Below are positions 28,618-48,225 of a stretch of 64,000 nucleotides of DNA, one piece after another. Position numbers and translations under genes: made by a program. Source of the DNA: Deltaproteobacteria bacterium. Its GTDB lineage: Bacteria; UBA10199; JACPAL01; JAHFST01. The stretch lies in NCBI GenBank assembly GCA_023265625.1, contig JAHFST010000008.1:62001-126000 (forward strand), read 5' to 3'. The notes under the pieces are model-generated. The model was not told the DNA's origin. It saw only the letters and a program-made list of their open reading frames with translations, and searched no databases. Within the stretch, counting starts at the first letter, position 1. The number at the start of each line of letters is the position of its first letter.

Positions 28618-29456
28618 AAGAAACACTCGCAACCTTTGAGGAGTATCTGCGTCACGAACGCGGTTATTCACGCCATACGGTGGACAATTATCGGCGAGAC
28701 TTAGTCCAGTTTTTTAAATTTTCGGGCCCTATTGAAGATCTTTCCAAGCTGGATATCTTGTTGCTGCGGCGTTTTGTGAGTTCCCTGTTCCGACATCATC
28801 AAGCGACTTCCATTGCGCGCAAGATTTCCACCCTGCGCAGCTTTTTCAAATTTTTGGTGCGCAAGAACTTAATTGCGGAAAGTCCCGCCGAAAGCCTCAC
28901 GATTCCAAAACTTCCCAAAAAAATCCCCCGATTTCTAGCCGTGGATGAGGCCTTTCGCTTGGTGGAAGGAACGACTCCCCTGCGAGACCGGGCGATCTTG
29001 GAGCTGCTGTATGGCACTGGGATTCGGGTGGGAGAGTTGGTTCGGGCAAAATTAAATGATCTGGATTTAGATACTCAATGTCTTCGCGTCTTGGGGAAGG
29101 GAAATAAGGAGCGTATTGTTCCCCTGGGAGGGAAGCTTTGCGAGGCGCTTCAGGCCTATTTAGCGGAGCGTAAAGAGGTGGCAGGACCGCTCTTTGGTAC
29201 GGGCACCCGTGGCTTGAATGTACGGACGGTCCAGCGCCTCGTACAAAAATATTCTCTTGCCGCGGGCATTCCAAAAAGAGTAACACCGCATAGTCTGCGT
29301 CACAGTTATGCCACCCACCTGCTGGAAGGTGGCGGTGATCTGAGGGGCATTCAGGAATTATTGGGACATGCCAGTCTGGCAACGACCCAACGTTACACGC
29401 ATGTGAGCTTGAAACAATTGATGGAAGTTTATGACAAATCACACCCTAAGGCCTAA
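28614..29456 (+). CDS. xerC: Tyrosine recombinase XerC-type
   Basis: The 280-residue protein has the N-terminal SAM-like core-binding domain (FEEYLRHERGYSRHTVDNYRRDL) and the catalytic domain. Catalytic Arg lies in GTGIRVGELVR, Lys probably in VLGKGNKERIVPL, His/Arg in HSLRHSYATHLL, a further His in LLGHASLATTQ and the nucleophile in RYTHVS. Xer proteins resolve chromosome dimers at dif. XerC rather than XerD is chosen from the neighbourhood (topA upstream, hslVU downstream); no second Xer gene is in the window. It is a complete host-type Xer gene with no sign of an integrase context. Confidence 0.92.
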   Translation: MKETLATFEEYLRHERGYSRHTVDNYRRDLVQFFKFSGPIEDLSKLDILLLRRFVSSLFRHHQATSIARKISTLRSFFKFLVRKNLIAESPAESLTIPKLPKKIPRFLAVDEAFRLVEGTTPLRDRAILELLYGTGIRVGELVRAKLNDLDLDTQCLRVLGKGNKERIVPLGGKLCEALQAYLAERKEVAGPLFGTGTRGLNVRTVQRLVQKYSLAAGIPKRVTPHSLRHSYATHLLEGGGDLRGIQELLGHASLATTQRYTHVSLKQLMEVYDKSHPKA

Positions 29457-29463
29457 CAACCCT

Positions 29464-29552
29464 AACACCCCCCAACCCCCCTCTTGCTTCAAGAGGGGGG
29501 AGACAACACTGTCTTTGCCCCCTCTTAAGGTAAGAGGGGGTTGGGGGGTGTT
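29464..29552. repeat. Double-hairpin inverted repeat between xerC and hslV
   Basis: A perfect 17-bp outer stem (29464-29480 with 29536-29552, AACACCCCCCAACCCCC and its complement) encloses two inner hairpins. CCCCCCTCTT pairs with AAGAGGGGGG across GCTTC, and CCCCCTCTT pairs with AAGAGGGGG across AAGGT. The inner parts share the CCCTCTT sequence, so the element is also an internal direct repeat. It fills the whole gap and ends directly against the hslV ATG at 29553, so it would sit in the hslV translation start region. Confidence 0.85.
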
Positions 29553-41330: not shown

Positions 41331-41681
41331 ATGACTTCGAAGAAGATTAAGATTTGCCTGGCCGATAATTGTAACAATGCCCAAACAACCGGGGGTTATT
41401 GTCGTTTGCATTATCTTAAGAATTGGAAGGACATCAAAGAAGAACAACAGCGCAAGGCAGCTGACCGGTTGAATAAGTATGTGGATGGGATCTGCAAGAA
41501 AAATCCGGACGATTTCATGTCCGTCGTGAAGAAAAACATCAAGGATGAACGCGGTTTGGAAACGACCGTGGACAATCTTTACCCCGAAGATGAAATGACC
41601 GCGGCCTTCAGTGACCTCGAGCAGGATGAGGCGTCACTCGACAAGATTTTGAGTCAAATTCGTATCCATGACAAATTCTAA
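41331..41681 (+). CDS. Small putative zinc-binding protein upstream of miaB
   Basis: This 116-residue hypothetical protein has an N-terminal cluster CLADNC-x9-C-x2-H (Cys9, Cys14, Cys24, His27). That could bind one zinc, as in the short CxxxxC...CxxH modules of several small proteins. The rest is helical and acidic. It overlaps miaB by 14 bp and has an AGGA Shine-Dalgarno. The overlap suggests a role linked to miaB or translation, but I do not know its function. Confidence 0.65.
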   Translation: MTSKKIKICLADNCNNAQTTGGYCRLHYLKNWKDIKEEQQRKAADRLNKYVDGICKKNPDDFMSVVKKNIKDERGLETTVDNLYPEDEMTAAFSDLEQDEASLDKILSQIRIHDKF

Positions 41682-43005
41682 AGACAATCCGCCCAAGGTT
41701 TATTTTCAGACCTTTGGATGCCAGATGAATGAGCATGATTCTGAGATTATGCTCGGTTTGATGCGCACCCATGGTTATCAGCAGACCGCTTCTTCCAAAG
41801 ACGCCGATTTAGTGGTGATCAACACCTGCAGTATTCGGCAAAAATCCTATCAAAAAGCGGTCTCTGCGATTGGGCGACTGAAGGAGAGGCAGGGGGTGAA
41901 GTTGGCGGTGACGGGTTGCGTGGTCTCCCATGAGGGAGAACATCTTTTAAAAAGATTTCCCTTTATTGATTTTGTCCTGGGGCCTGATCATGTGCAAAAG
42001 TTGCCGCAACTGATGGAGGACAACGGCGTAGGGGTTCAAAATTTTGAACCCCTACAGGACAGCTTTCACGATCTCTCCGATTACGAATTCCCGACCGTCA
42101 TTGATCCCATCGCCCTGGGAAAAAATCACCGCAAAGTAAGCGCCTACGTTACCATCATGAAGGGGTGTGACAATGTCTGTTCGTTTTGCATTGTGCCCCA
42201 GGTGAGGGGGGGCGAGGTGTATCGTCCGATGGGTGACATTATTCGGGAGATTCAGCTGTTAGAAAAAGAGGGGATCCAGGAGGTGGTGTTACTGGGACAA
42301 AATGTCAATTCTTATGGCAAAGGTGGTAAGGTTGATTTTACCCAATTACTCCGTCTGATCACTCAAGAGACGGGGATGGCCCGCATTCGTTATACCAGCC
42401 CTCACCCCAAGGATTTATCGTCCGATCTGATTCAGGAGTATGGCCGTAATCCCAGATTGTGCCCTCATATCCATCTTCCCGTCCAATCCGGTTCCAATCA
42501 AATCTTGAAAAAGATGCGGCGGTCCTATTCGCGGGAAGTCTATTTACGCAAGGTTGAAAGGCTTCGTCAGGTGCGACCTGATATTGCGATCACCACGGAT
42601 ATTATTGTCGGTTTTCCCGGGGAAACGGAGTCCGATTTTCAAGACACCTTAAACTTGGTTGCGGAGGCGGATTTTGACGCCAGTTATTCTTTTTCTTTTT
42701 CTCCCCGGCCCGGAACCGAGGCCGCCTCCTGGGCCGATGATATTCCAAGGGACTTAAAAAGGGAGCGACTCTCCCGGCTTCAGCTTCATCAGGAGGAAAT
42801 ATCCCACAAAAAGAACGCCCAATTGATTGGGAAATCCTATGAGGTCTTAATCGAGGAAGAGACCGATCGGCCCGGTCAACTGACAGGCAAGACCCCTCAT
42901 GGTAAGATTGTAAATTTCGATGGTGATCGGACATTCATTGGTGCTAGAATGCCCGTAAGGATCTGCCACGCATCGGCTTACTCGTTACGAGGTGAACTAT
43001 GTTGA
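41668..43005 (+). CDS. miaB: tRNA-2-methylthio-N6-dimethylallyladenosine synthase
   Basis: MiaB adds a methylthio group to i6A37 of tRNAs using two Fe-S clusters. The N-terminal cysteines are in YFQTFGCQMNEHDSE, VINTCSIRQKS and AVTGCVVS. The radical-SAM motif is MKGCDNVCSFCIVPQVRGG, and a TRAM domain closes the protein. Residues 121-130 ([10 protein letters not shown]) in the linker before the radical-SAM domain are encoded by a 28-bp perfect palindrome. The frame is kept and the catalytic cysteines are unaffected. The 445-residue length is normal. It overlaps both neighbours. Confidence 0.95.
   Translation: MTNSKDNPPKVYFQTFGCQMNEHDSEIMLGLMRTHGYQQTASSKDADLVVINTCSIRQKSYQKAVSAIGRLKERQGVKLAVTGCVVSHEGEHLLKRFPFIDFVLGPDHVQKLPQLMEDNGVGVQNFEPLQDSFHDLSDYEFPTVIDPIALGKNHRKVSAYVTIMKGCDNVCSFCIVPQVRGGEVYRPMGDIIREIQLLEKEGIQEVVLLGQNVNSYGKGGKVDFTQLLRLITQETGMARIRYTSPHPKDLSSDLIQEYGRNPRLCPHIHLPVQSGSNQILKKMRRSYSREVYLRKVERLRQVRPDIAITTDIIVGFPGETESDFQDTLNLVAEADFDASYSFSFSPRPGTEAASWADDIPRDLKRERLSRLQLHQEEISHKKNAQLIGKSYEVLIEEETDRPGQLTGKTPHGKIVNFDGDRTFIGARMPVRICHASAYSLRGELC
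42028..42055. repeat. 28-bp perfect palindrome inside miaB
   Basis: GTAGGGGTTCAAAA is followed directly by its exact reverse complement. The same 28 bases occur at 47370-47397. In both places GGC precedes the element. The ends GTAGGGG/CCCCTAC are shared with the pheS hairpin. Here it is read in frame as part of the linker between the UPF0004 and radical-SAM domains. Confidence 0.95.
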
Positions 43006-43502: not shown

Positions 43503-43933
43503 AGATGCCACCGGTCCTGCGTTATTGGGTTCCATTCATTGTTTATCTCGGCTTTTTGACCTACCTGCTCTTTAAGCCCTCGTTGCCCGAGATTTCTATG
43601 CCTTACTTTGACAAGGCGGCCCATCTGGGTTTCTTTGCCGTACTTGGAATTCTTGTGCTTAGGATATTTCATCCGATTGAACAGCACTGGAGCCTCACTA
43701 AATGTATTAAGGTGGCCCTCTTAGGGACCCTCATTTATGGGATGATTACGGAACTGGGGCAAGCCATGACTGCCACTCGTTCGGCGGAGTGGGGAGATCT
43801 TTTTATGGATGGTTTGGGAGGTGCAATTGGGGGCTTTTGTTATTACCCAATTAAAGTTCGCTGCTGTCATTCTGAGCCCTTCGGCTCCGCTCAGGGCAGG
43901 CTCCGCGAAGAATCTTCCGAGATTTCCTTATGA
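43499..43933 (+). CDS. VanZ-family membrane protein with repeat-encoded C-terminal tail
   Basis: This 144-residue protein has four membrane segments and the VanZ-type pattern (DKAAHLGFFAVLGILVLR; GMITELGQAMTATRSAEWGDLFMDGLGGAIGG). After YPIKVRC the last 22 residues (CHSEPFGSAQGRLREES, then SEISL) come from a dispersed repeat at 43865-43915. The original protein probably ended near YYPIK. The start may be GTG 43499 or ATG 43505. The stop overlaps the next gene as ATGA. The function of VanZ-like proteins in general is unknown. Confidence 0.8.
   Translation: MKMPPVLRYWVPFIVYLGFLTYLLFKPSLPEISMPYFDKAAHLGFFAVLGILVLRIFHPIEQHWSLTKCIKVALLGTLIYGMITELGQAMTATRSAEWGDLFMDGLGGAIGGFCYYPIKVRCCHSEPFGSAQGRLREESSEISL
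43865..43915. repeat. Dispersed TCATTCTGAG...GAAGAATCT repeat at the 3' end of the VanZ gene
   Basis: The element begins TGTCATTCTGAGCCCTTCGG and ends CTCCGCGAAGAATCT. CTGAGC and GCTCAG can pair within it. From memory, repeats of this type are found many times in various bacterial genomes and yield the recognisable peptide CHSEPFGSAQGRLREES when read through, as happens here. Confidence 0.8.
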
Positions 43934-45444: not shown

Positions 45445-47373
45445 GTGAAACAATCACAAAAAACCATTGCCCTTTGGGCGGTCATCCTCCTACTTTCCAT
45501 TGCCGTCTTGCAGTTGCTCAATTCCAAGCCTGTCTTGAGAAAAGCCATTTCTTTCAGTGATTTGCTCCTGTCCATCGAGAAAAATCAGGTGGAAAAGGTC
45601 GTTGTACAAGAAGACGAGTATACTGGAAAATTCAAAGATAATTTTGAAGGTGGGGGTTATTTTGAGACCGTTGGGCCCATGCAGAGCGACAAAGCCTTTG
45701 AATTGTTAGCAAAATCCGGCGCAACCGTTGAATATAAAAAACGTCGGGAGACCCCTTTTTGGCAACAGGCCTTGATCTCCTGGTTGCCCATGATCCTGTT
45801 GTTTGGGTTCTTTTTCTTCTCCATGCGGCAAATCAACATGGGGGGTGGGCGGGCCATGAGTTTTGGCCGGAGTCGCGCCCGACTTCTCTCTGAAAACCAG
45901 AAGCGCGTCACCTTTAAAGACGTTGCGGGTGTTGATGAGGCCAAATATGATTTAGAAGAAATTATCGCTTTTCTACGTGATCCCAAAAAATTTACGCGAC
46001 TCGGTGGCAGGATTCCCAAGGGAGTTTTGTTGGTTGGGGCCCCAGGGACGGGTAAAACCTTGTTGGCGAAGGCCGTAGCGGGGGAGGCTGGGGTCCCTTT
46101 CTTCTCCATCAGTGGTTCCGATTTTGTGGAAATGTTTGTCGGGGTGGGTGCCTCGCGGGTGCGTGATCTATTTGAGCAGGGTAAGAAACACGCCCCCTGC
46201 ATTATTTTTATCGATGAAATTGATGCGGTCGGACGGCATCGTGGCGCGGGGCTTGGCGGAGGGCACGACGAGCGTGAGCAGACCCTCAACCAATTGTTAG
46301 TGGAGATGGATGGTTTTGAATCCAATGAAGGTGTCATCATCATGGCCGCCACCAATAGGCCTGATGTGTTAGATCCAGCTTTGCTGCGTCCCGGGCGGTT
46401 TGATCGTCGCGTTATGGTCCCGCGTCCCGATTTGGGAGGACGCGAGGCCATCTTAAAGGTTCATTGCCGGAAGAAGGTCTTGAGTCCGGATCTTGACCTT
46501 TCGATCATTGCCCGTGGCACTCCTGGTTTTTCCGGGGCTGACTTGGAAAACTTGGTGAATGAGGCCGCCCTCAACGCTGCTCGTTATGACAAAAAATCAA
46601 TCTTCATCGAAGATTTTGAGTCTGCTAAAGACAAGGTTTTGATGGGGTCCGAGCGGCGTAACATGATTATCAATGATGAAGAAAAGAAGCGCATTGCCTA
46701 TCATGAATCGGGTCATACGCTAGTGGCAAAATCACTGCCGCGCACGGATCCAGTTTATAAAGTTTCGATCATTCCCCGAGGCATGGCCTTGGGGGTGACG
46801 CAGCAGCTGCCCATTGATGAAAAACATATTCACTCCAAGGATTATGCGGAAAATATGATTTCGGTTTTTATGGGCGGTCGATGCGCGGAAGAGCTCATCT
46901 TCAATGAACTCACCACCGGTGCCGGAGATGACATTGAGAAGGCCACCGATCTGGCACGCAAGATTGTCTGTGAATGGGGCATGAGCGATTTAGGCCCCTT
47001 GAGTTTTGGCCGGAAAGACGCCGAGGTGTTCCTGGGCCGTGATTTGTCACATCGCCAGGAATATAGCGAACAGACTGCCTTGGAGATTGATCAGGAAATC
47101 AAAAAGATCATTAAGAAAAACTATGACCGTTCCAAGGGGCTTTTGAGTGATCGACTACAGGATTTGCACAACTTGGCTCAACACCTGTTGGAGCGAGAGA
47201 CCTTGGATGGTTCAGAAATTGATAAGATCTTGAAGGGTGAAAAGCTTGAGCCCTTCAAACCTTTTGAACCGCCCCCTTCTCTTTTTGCGCCGCAGTCTGA
47301 GAAAATTTCAGAAAAAGAGCCAAAGAAGTCCATGGGGCCCATCGGTCCCTTGCCAGAACCCAGCAAGGCGTAG
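45445..47373 (+). CDS. ftsH: ATP-dependent zinc metalloprotease FtsH
   Basis: FtsH is the membrane-bound AAA+ protease for quality control and LpxC or sigma-32 turnover. Two membrane segments (about 9-25 and 108-126) flank a short periplasmic domain. Walker A GAPGTGKT (198-205), [11 protein letters not shown], the second region of homology and the zinc site HESGH (420-424) are intact. The 642-residue length is normal. GTG starts it with AGGA upstream. Its stop codon TAG (47371-47373) lies within the palindrome at 47370-47397. Confidence 0.97.
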
Positions 47374-47397
47374 GGGTTCAAAATTTTGAACCCCTAC
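47370..47397. repeat. Second copy of the 28-bp palindrome, across the ftsH stop and folP start
   Basis: It is identical over all 28 bases to the copy inside miaB (42028-42055). Bases 2-4 (TAG) are the ftsH stop. TTG at 47386-47388 in the right arm is the apparent folP start, with AGGGG of the left arm at Shine-Dalgarno distance. The element therefore makes up the entire junction between the two genes. Confidence 0.95.
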
Positions 47398-48225
47398 CAG
47401 ATACATATCGGCAACCGCCTATTTGATTTTTCAAAGAAAACTTATGTCATGGGGATTTTAAACGTAACCCCCGATTCTTTTTCGGATGGTGGATGTTACC
47501 TGGATCCGGAACGGGCCCTGGAACGAGCCCTCGAGATGGAGGCACAAGGGGCTGATCTGATCGACATTGGAGCCGAGTCGACCCGTCCCGGGGCAGATCC
47601 AGTTCCCTGGGAGGAGGAGTGGCGGCGACTGGAGCCGGTGTTACGCCGCGTGGTCCCGCGCTTGAGCTTGCCGGTTTCCATCGACACACAAAAAGCCGAG
47701 GTGGCCAAAAAGGCCGTGGATCTGGGGGTAAGCCTGATCAATGACGTCAATGCATTGCAGGGGCCTGGGATGCTGGACGCAGCGGCGCACGCGCAAGTCC
47801 CTGTAATATTGATGCACAAGCGAGGTGAGCCTAAAAACATGCAGCAGGGAATTTATTACGAGGATACGTTGCGCGAGGTTGTCAGCTTTCTCGAGGCACG
47901 CATTCAAGCGGTCTGCGCCGCAGGCCTAAATCGTGATAAGATCCTCATCGATCCCGGTATTGGTTTTGGCAAACGATTCGAAGATAACCTCATTCTGTTG
48001 CAAAATCCGCAAGCGTTCCATCTCTTGGAATGCCCACTGGTCGTTGGGGCCTCGCGCAAATCCTTCCTAAAGACCATGGCTGGGTCCACTCCGGAAGCTT
48101 TACTGGCTGGAAACTTGGCAGCGGTGGCCTGGGCTCATCAGCAAAAGATCGGGATGGTCCGAGTTCATGACGTCCTTGAGAGTGTTGTGTTGTTAAAGAC
48201 CTTGCAAGGGATCAGGGGCTTCTAA
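47386..48225 (+). CDS. folP: Dihydropteroate synthase
   Basis: FolP joins p-aminobenzoate to the pterin in folate synthesis. MGILNVTPDSFSDGG, LIDIGAESTRPGA, LINDVNAL, ILIDPGIGFGKR and VGASRKSF are the family's loops; RVHDV closes the domain. The frame closes upstream at TAG 47371, so the start must be TTG 47386 (or ATT 47383), both inside the palindrome. ATG 47446 is less likely because it would begin right at the first catalytic loop and lose the first strand. The length from TTG (279) is normal. It is the target of sulfonamides. Confidence 0.95.
   Translation: MNPYQIHIGNRLFDFSKKTYVMGILNVTPDSFSDGGCYLDPERALERALEMEAQGADLIDIGAESTRPGADPVPWEEEWRRLEPVLRRVVPRLSLPVSIDTQKAEVAKKAVDLGVSLINDVNALQGPGMLDAAAHAQVPVILMHKRGEPKNMQQGIYYEDTLREVVSFLEARIQAVCAAGLNRDKILIDPGIGFGKRFEDNLILLQNPQAFHLLECPLVVGASRKSFLKTMAGSTPEALLAGNLAAVAWAHQQKIGMVRVHDVLESVVLLKTLQGIRGF

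Follow-up and report, generated by a model that had tools for sequence, protein, structure and literature searches.

Rickettsia palindromic elements (RPEs) are palindromes that lie in frame within genes without destroying them. The peptide that they contribute is usually 30 to 50 residues long. Other small palindromes, the GTAG-tagged REPs, were reported earlier within genes for replication, repair, and tRNA functions and at the ends of genes, where the REP supplies a TAG stop; the classical GTAG REP has a loop and a single GTAG tail that does not pair, and CGTC is the tag of RPE-4 and RPE-6 (Di Nocera et al. 2013, PMC3733652). REPs are associated with RAYT (TnpA_REP) proteins. TnpA_REP subclass 2.4, which equals Bertels group 4, is patchily distributed across phyla, and its double-foot REPs have a GTAG 5' foot, a CTAC 3' end, and a perfect stem; they both flank tnpA_REP and sit in frame inside it, between the HuH and Y motifs (Quentin et al. 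2018, PMC6006769). In other REPtrons, TnpA_REP binds single-stranded REP hairpins and cuts at CT, and cleavage in vitro requires both GTAG and the hairpin (PMC8266576). The Y1 enzymes of the IS200/IS605 elements (IS608, ISDra2) are likewise HuH/Tyr enzymes that recognize single-stranded hairpins and leave no target duplication. We know of no direct observation of REP transposition.

A repeated perfect palindrome is read in frame in miaB

The window, a 64-kb stretch of DNA that was analyzed as a whole, contains a 28-bp perfect palindrome inside miaB (Table 1). It consists of GTAGGGGTTCAAAA followed by its reverse complement and is read as MiaB residues 121 to 129, with its final C serving as the first base of codon Q130. 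An earlier note on this DNA had described the palindrome, and its coordinates, sequence, and frame were exact. The note had also placed it between the N-terminal and radical SAM domains, and our domain search agrees: UPF0004 covers residues 10 to 105 and radical SAM covers residues 162 to 331. The note was also right that a coding region took up the element and still yields an intact protein. miaB is full length, and its equivalog score is 471.6, above the cutoff of 355.3; its identity to the closest relatives in the order is 57 to 62%. The proposal that the linker is about 10 residues longer did not hold in a comparison with relatives. The interval between conserved anchors is 19 residues versus 16 to 17 in seven relatives from the order and class, and we put the gain at 2 residues. 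This interdomain linker appears to be a place that tolerates insertion.

Table 1. Coordinates of the palindrome copies and of the genes that they touch in the window
Feature	Coordinates	Strand	Remarks
28-bp perfect palindrome, double-foot GTAG REP	42028..42055	. (strands identical)	In frame in miaB, VGVQNFEPL
miaB (tRNA N6-isopentenyladenosine(37)-C2 methylthiotransferase)	41668..43005	+	Host gene of the element; three of three domains present
Second exact copy of the 28-mer	47370..47397	.	At the ftsH/folP junction
ftsH-like ORF	45445..47373	+	Stop codon inside the second copy; named from its own sequence
folP-like ORF (VMGILNVTPDSFSDGG)	47386..48225	+	Overlaps the second copy at its 5' end; name read from the sequence of the ORF

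Each strand of the 28-mer has stops (TAG, TGA) in two of its three frames, and the frame that remains can be read from both strands and gives the same peptide. As single-stranded DNA, the 28-mer is predicted to fold into a hairpin of -11.5 kcal/mol (z = -6.1). The window holds two exact matches, compared with none in 100 dinucleotide shuffles, and no other perfect palindrome there has arms of 14 bp; the next longest arm is 11 bp. In the second copy, GTAG supplies the TAG stop of the ftsH-like ORF, as in the earlier reports on GTAG REPs. The first possible start of the folP-like ORF is a TTG at 47386, within the same copy, although the true start could be further downstream.

The genome (2.93 Mb in 37 contigs, 95.6% complete) contains 58 copies of the 28-mer with up to three mismatches, far above the two that would have spoken against a dispersed repeat, and the reversed control pattern has none. 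Among the matches listed, 48 of 51 are exact. Because shuffled windows never produced the 28-mer and the reversed control never matched the genome, a chance origin of the copies is ruled out. We did not detect the 28-mer, allowing two mismatches, in 59 comparison genomes chosen from order to domain level, five of them from the same order. The palindrome does not extend beyond 28 bp in this genome's copies. Target duplication, which the earlier note had considered, was absent around 47 copies here and 92 in foreign genomes; duplications of 1 to 5 bp were as frequent as expected. A DDE-type MITE, which should be flanked by such duplications, was rejected on these counts.

Further GTAGGGG...CCCCTAC palindromes (with the core CGTATTGCAATACG, among others) occur in this genome along with inverted REP pairs of 45 to 48 bp, at 82 places in total versus 1 in the control, and we class them as GTAG REPs. 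In a second double-foot family here, GTAGGGGCGTATTGCAATACGCCCCTAC, almost every 28-mer is preceded by T and followed by A (pooled T, 0.89). These flanks, which the TTCAAAATTTTGAA family lacks, may reflect either a unit lengthened to 30 bp or a preferred target. We found no match to the core TTCAAAATTTTGAA in the literature searched.

Proteins with in-frame copies differ from relatives by a few residues in length

At least 10 of the 51 listed copies lie in frame inside conserved genes, namely miaB, rimO, dnaA, alaS, gpmI, acs, rsmD, a yyaL-like gene, a nitrite/sulfite reductase-like gene (nir), and the C terminus of mltG, with names that come partly from our reading of the sequences. In-frame REPs with other cores occur in accC, bioA, folC (two), gpmI (a second REP), mutL, mutY, and dus-like and oppD-like genes, and rimO has a second REP, read as VGAYGNTPL. 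The genes rimO (L063), gpmI (L061), and folC (L017) each hold two different in-frame REPs, in different loops.

We measured net length change as the number of residues between conserved anchors, compared with relatives from the order and class. These relatives are 52 to 72% identical, and the preinsertion length is read from them rather than from an empty site in this species. At the 28-mer, the net change is +2 in miaB, +3 in rimO, +3 in acs, +7 in alaS, +7 in gpmI, +8 in nir, about +8 in dnaA, -4 in the yyaL-like gene, and -5 in rsmD. At most sites the relatives agree among themselves (acs, 13 residues in 7 of 8; alaS, 6; yyaL-like, 18; nir, 12). The evidence is weaker for dnaA, accC, and folC, because the linker varies among relatives. 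Since the net change spans -5 to +8 over nine genes, the element seems, as judged from these alignments, to replace target sequence without duplicating it. The missing target bases were probably lost at or near the time of insertion, because the copies of the 28-mer are almost unmutated. A single clean insertion of 24 nt at all sites, attractive as a multiple of three, fits only nir (+8).

The accC (L087) loop before HA(I/M)ECRI reads VGAYCNTPL here and holds other inserts in related genomes (L288, L304), e.g., VGANPRVRPSGKGRHMGLPLHG, as though it had served insertions repeatedly as a safe site. A REP peptide family, VGAALCGRP...GNHIGLPL and its kin, recurs in AccC, BioA, and MutL (L087, L023, and L093). 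The RAYT L358 has VGAALCGRP within its own gene. The interdomain linker of MutL (L093), at about residues 330 to 385, looks like several REP peptides in series (HVGAPLAAPLQNTVVGRGDPVGRP...GGGVWPYAPT).

The exact 28-mer occurs in many phyla

When we searched 84,980 genomes for exact matches, at least 94 foreign stretches contained the 28-mer. Among the matches listed, at least a dozen phyla carry it, including Bacteroidota, Ignavibacteria, Nitrospirota, Zixiibacteriota, KSB1, Planctomycetota, Patescibacteria, Omnitrophota, Cloacimonadota, Chloroflexi, Bacillota, and others; binning errors may inflate this list, and isolate genomes (e.g., Emticicia and Botryobacter) and closed chromosomes are nonetheless among the matches. 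No Rickettsia appeared among the matches listed for these stretches. The 25 carrier genomes that we sampled have 1 to 32 copies each, and the controls have none.

The 28-mer is linked to subclass 2.4 RAYT genes in foreign genomes

In foreign loci, which were chosen by the presence of the 28-mer, every RAYT ORF that best matches subclass 2.4 lies within 50 bp of a copy, and most contain one. The sole exception is the downstream piece of a split gene, 399 bp away. The tnpA_REP genes of this subclass are marked by the motifs NH[IFV]H, WQ, and YIxNNP. The embedded copy is at one conserved site, directly following HxHGI and preceding the Tyr helix, and eight RAYTs carry an in-frame REP between the HuH and Y motifs (L116, L138, L148, L153, L162, L174, L177, and L094). 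We do not regard a REP inside its RAYT as a new design, since it was already described for subclass 2.4 (Quentin et al. 2018, PMC6006769). Other cores can occupy this site: of 30 Bacteroidia RAYTs sampled, at least 14 carry there a perfect GTAG/CTAC palindrome that differs from the 28-mer, and several of those genomes contain matching or related palindromes elsewhere.

Nine RAYTs bearing the 28-mer core fall into one subtree of 12 rows, and none of 500 shuffles was equally clustered. They come from Ignavibacteriota, Parcubacteria, Bacteroidota, Omnitrophota, and Raymondbacteria. The 28-mer-bearing RAYT proteins share 42 to 65% identity with one another. A recognition site would be expected to behave in this way, staying constant while the enzyme next to it diverges.

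We found three subclass 2.4 RAYTs in this genome (L083, L082, and L358). A 27/28 copy overlaps the 3' end of L083, the only RAYT here that touches a 28-mer, and L358 carries REPs of another core. A Pfam Y1_Tnp search returned 10 genes, eight of them of other Y1 classes; it missed one subclass 2.4 RAYT, which we recovered with a protein query. The two RAYTs of this genome that were tested on the tree fall outside the subtree of 28-mer-bearing RAYTs. The three are therefore candidates for the cognate enzyme of the 58 copies, and we count this uncertainty, along with an assembly completeness of 95.6%, against a RAYT explanation.

The 28-mer is a double-foot GTAG REP that was very probably moved by a RAYT

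The feet GT[AG]G and C[TC]AC around a perfect stem, the dispersed copies, and the in-frame position inside RAYT genes all match the REPs of subclass 2.4. The 28-mer is an additional double-foot GTAG REP of the mobile type, and we are largely confident that it is a minimal nonautonomous element, copied or relocated by a Y1 HuH transposase from the subclass 2.4 RAYT/TnpA_REP group. It differs from the described subclass 2.4 REPs in that one identical core is found in at least a dozen phyla and in that copies lie in many core genes, where they seem to replace target residues. It differs from classical GTAG REPs in that both feet pair. We found no description of net length effects at insertion sites for GTAG REPs (PMC3733652). 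Autonomous IS200/IS605 elements have two ends and insert precisely at a short target, in contrast to the lone hairpin and apparent target loss here.

By analogy with related REPtrons, the cognate RAYT would bind the 28-mer as a single strand, cleave it, and transfer it. In the folded 28-nt strand, GTAG would form one foot of the hairpin and CTAC the other, and a subclass 2.4 RAYT may recognize the GTAG foot and the hairpin and paste the hairpin at new sites without target duplication, with the loss of a few target bases. Since many RAYTs of the clade carry the palindrome in their own gene, gene and substrate could move together between phyla, and the REP would multiply after arriving in a new genome. 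Within genes, only those insertions would survive that alter the length by a multiple of three, keep to the frame free of stops, and fall in a tolerant loop. We tentatively put forward a joint reading, to which we give somewhat less than even chances: insertion of subclass 2.4 REPs is a delete-and-insert event, in which a hairpin replaces about 0 to 40 bp of target, and a RAYT with its own in-frame REP is a self-contained unit that has carried an identical 28-nt REP through at least a dozen phyla. A hairpin that replaces target could settle in conserved genes and leave protein length nearly the same.

The earlier note had likened the palindrome to RPEs. The likeness holds for a repeated palindrome of the mobile type that survives in frame in conserved genes and leaves the protein intact, the same practical outcome as for an RPE. 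However, the 28-mer encodes only 9 to 10 residues, well below the usual RPE peptide, adds just 2 net residues to miaB, ends in GTAG/CTAC rather than CGTC, and is linked to RAYT genes, whereas CGTC repeats are not. We rejected membership on tag and length, and an RPE or a direct descendant of one is hardly credible. It is only slightly less improbable that the 28-mer is a DNA site for protein binding or regulation, such as a nucleoid protein site or a motif tied to the origin or to division, that is kept by selection and does not move. Such a site would explain why the sequence is nearly invariant in this genome, but not its absence from the comparison genomes, even those of the same order, its scatter among unrelated genes and neighbors, its physical linkage to transposase genes across phyla, or the other REP cores beside it.

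Two further alternatives concern parts of the REP reading. Identical palindromes could have arisen independently in distant phyla, since the GTAGGGG/CCCCTAC portion is widespread and leaves just 7 core bases free, for about 16,000 possible cores, and many double-foot cores do exist. We consider this unlikely, because RAYTs with this core cluster on the tree far beyond chance, with 42 to 65% identity to one another. The insertion may also be clean, of a fixed unit such as 24 nt after a preexisting GTAG, with shorter linkers due to later deletion or already present before insertion. The exact 24-nt gain in nir and the precise insertion beside a short target known for canonical IS200/IS605 enzymes are consistent with this, as is the distance of the relatives, from which this lineage's preinsertion linker is not read directly. 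On the other hand, the nine net changes vary while most relatives agree among themselves, and near-exact copies speak against a long decay of their neighborhood. Thus, a clean insertion is possible but doubtful, and we prefer replacement of target.

This double-foot REP appears to represent a recent burst of near-identical copies, and the ancestral lengths of its host genes can be read from relatives. Because many copies lie in conserved genes for which the relatives' lengths are available, the geometry of insertion can be measured. This genome shows how far essential proteins (DnaA, AlaRS, MiaB, RimO, AccC, and MutL) tolerate a parasitic peptide, and it reveals permissive loops such as that of accC, where the inserts differ between this and related genomes. 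The heavy load on core genes and the apparent delete-and-insert geometry, which was unexpected, are the parts most worth following.

Other possible repeats in the window

The ORF that ends at 43933 closes with a tail, HSEPFGSAQGRLREESSEI (43856 to 43930), that resembles translation through a further dispersed repeat. At 29476 to 29540, just past an ORF that ends at 29456, there are two adjacent hairpins with G/C runs, CCCCCCTCTT...AAGAGGGGGG and CCCCCTCTTA...TAAGAGGGGG, which are possible terminators or another repeat.
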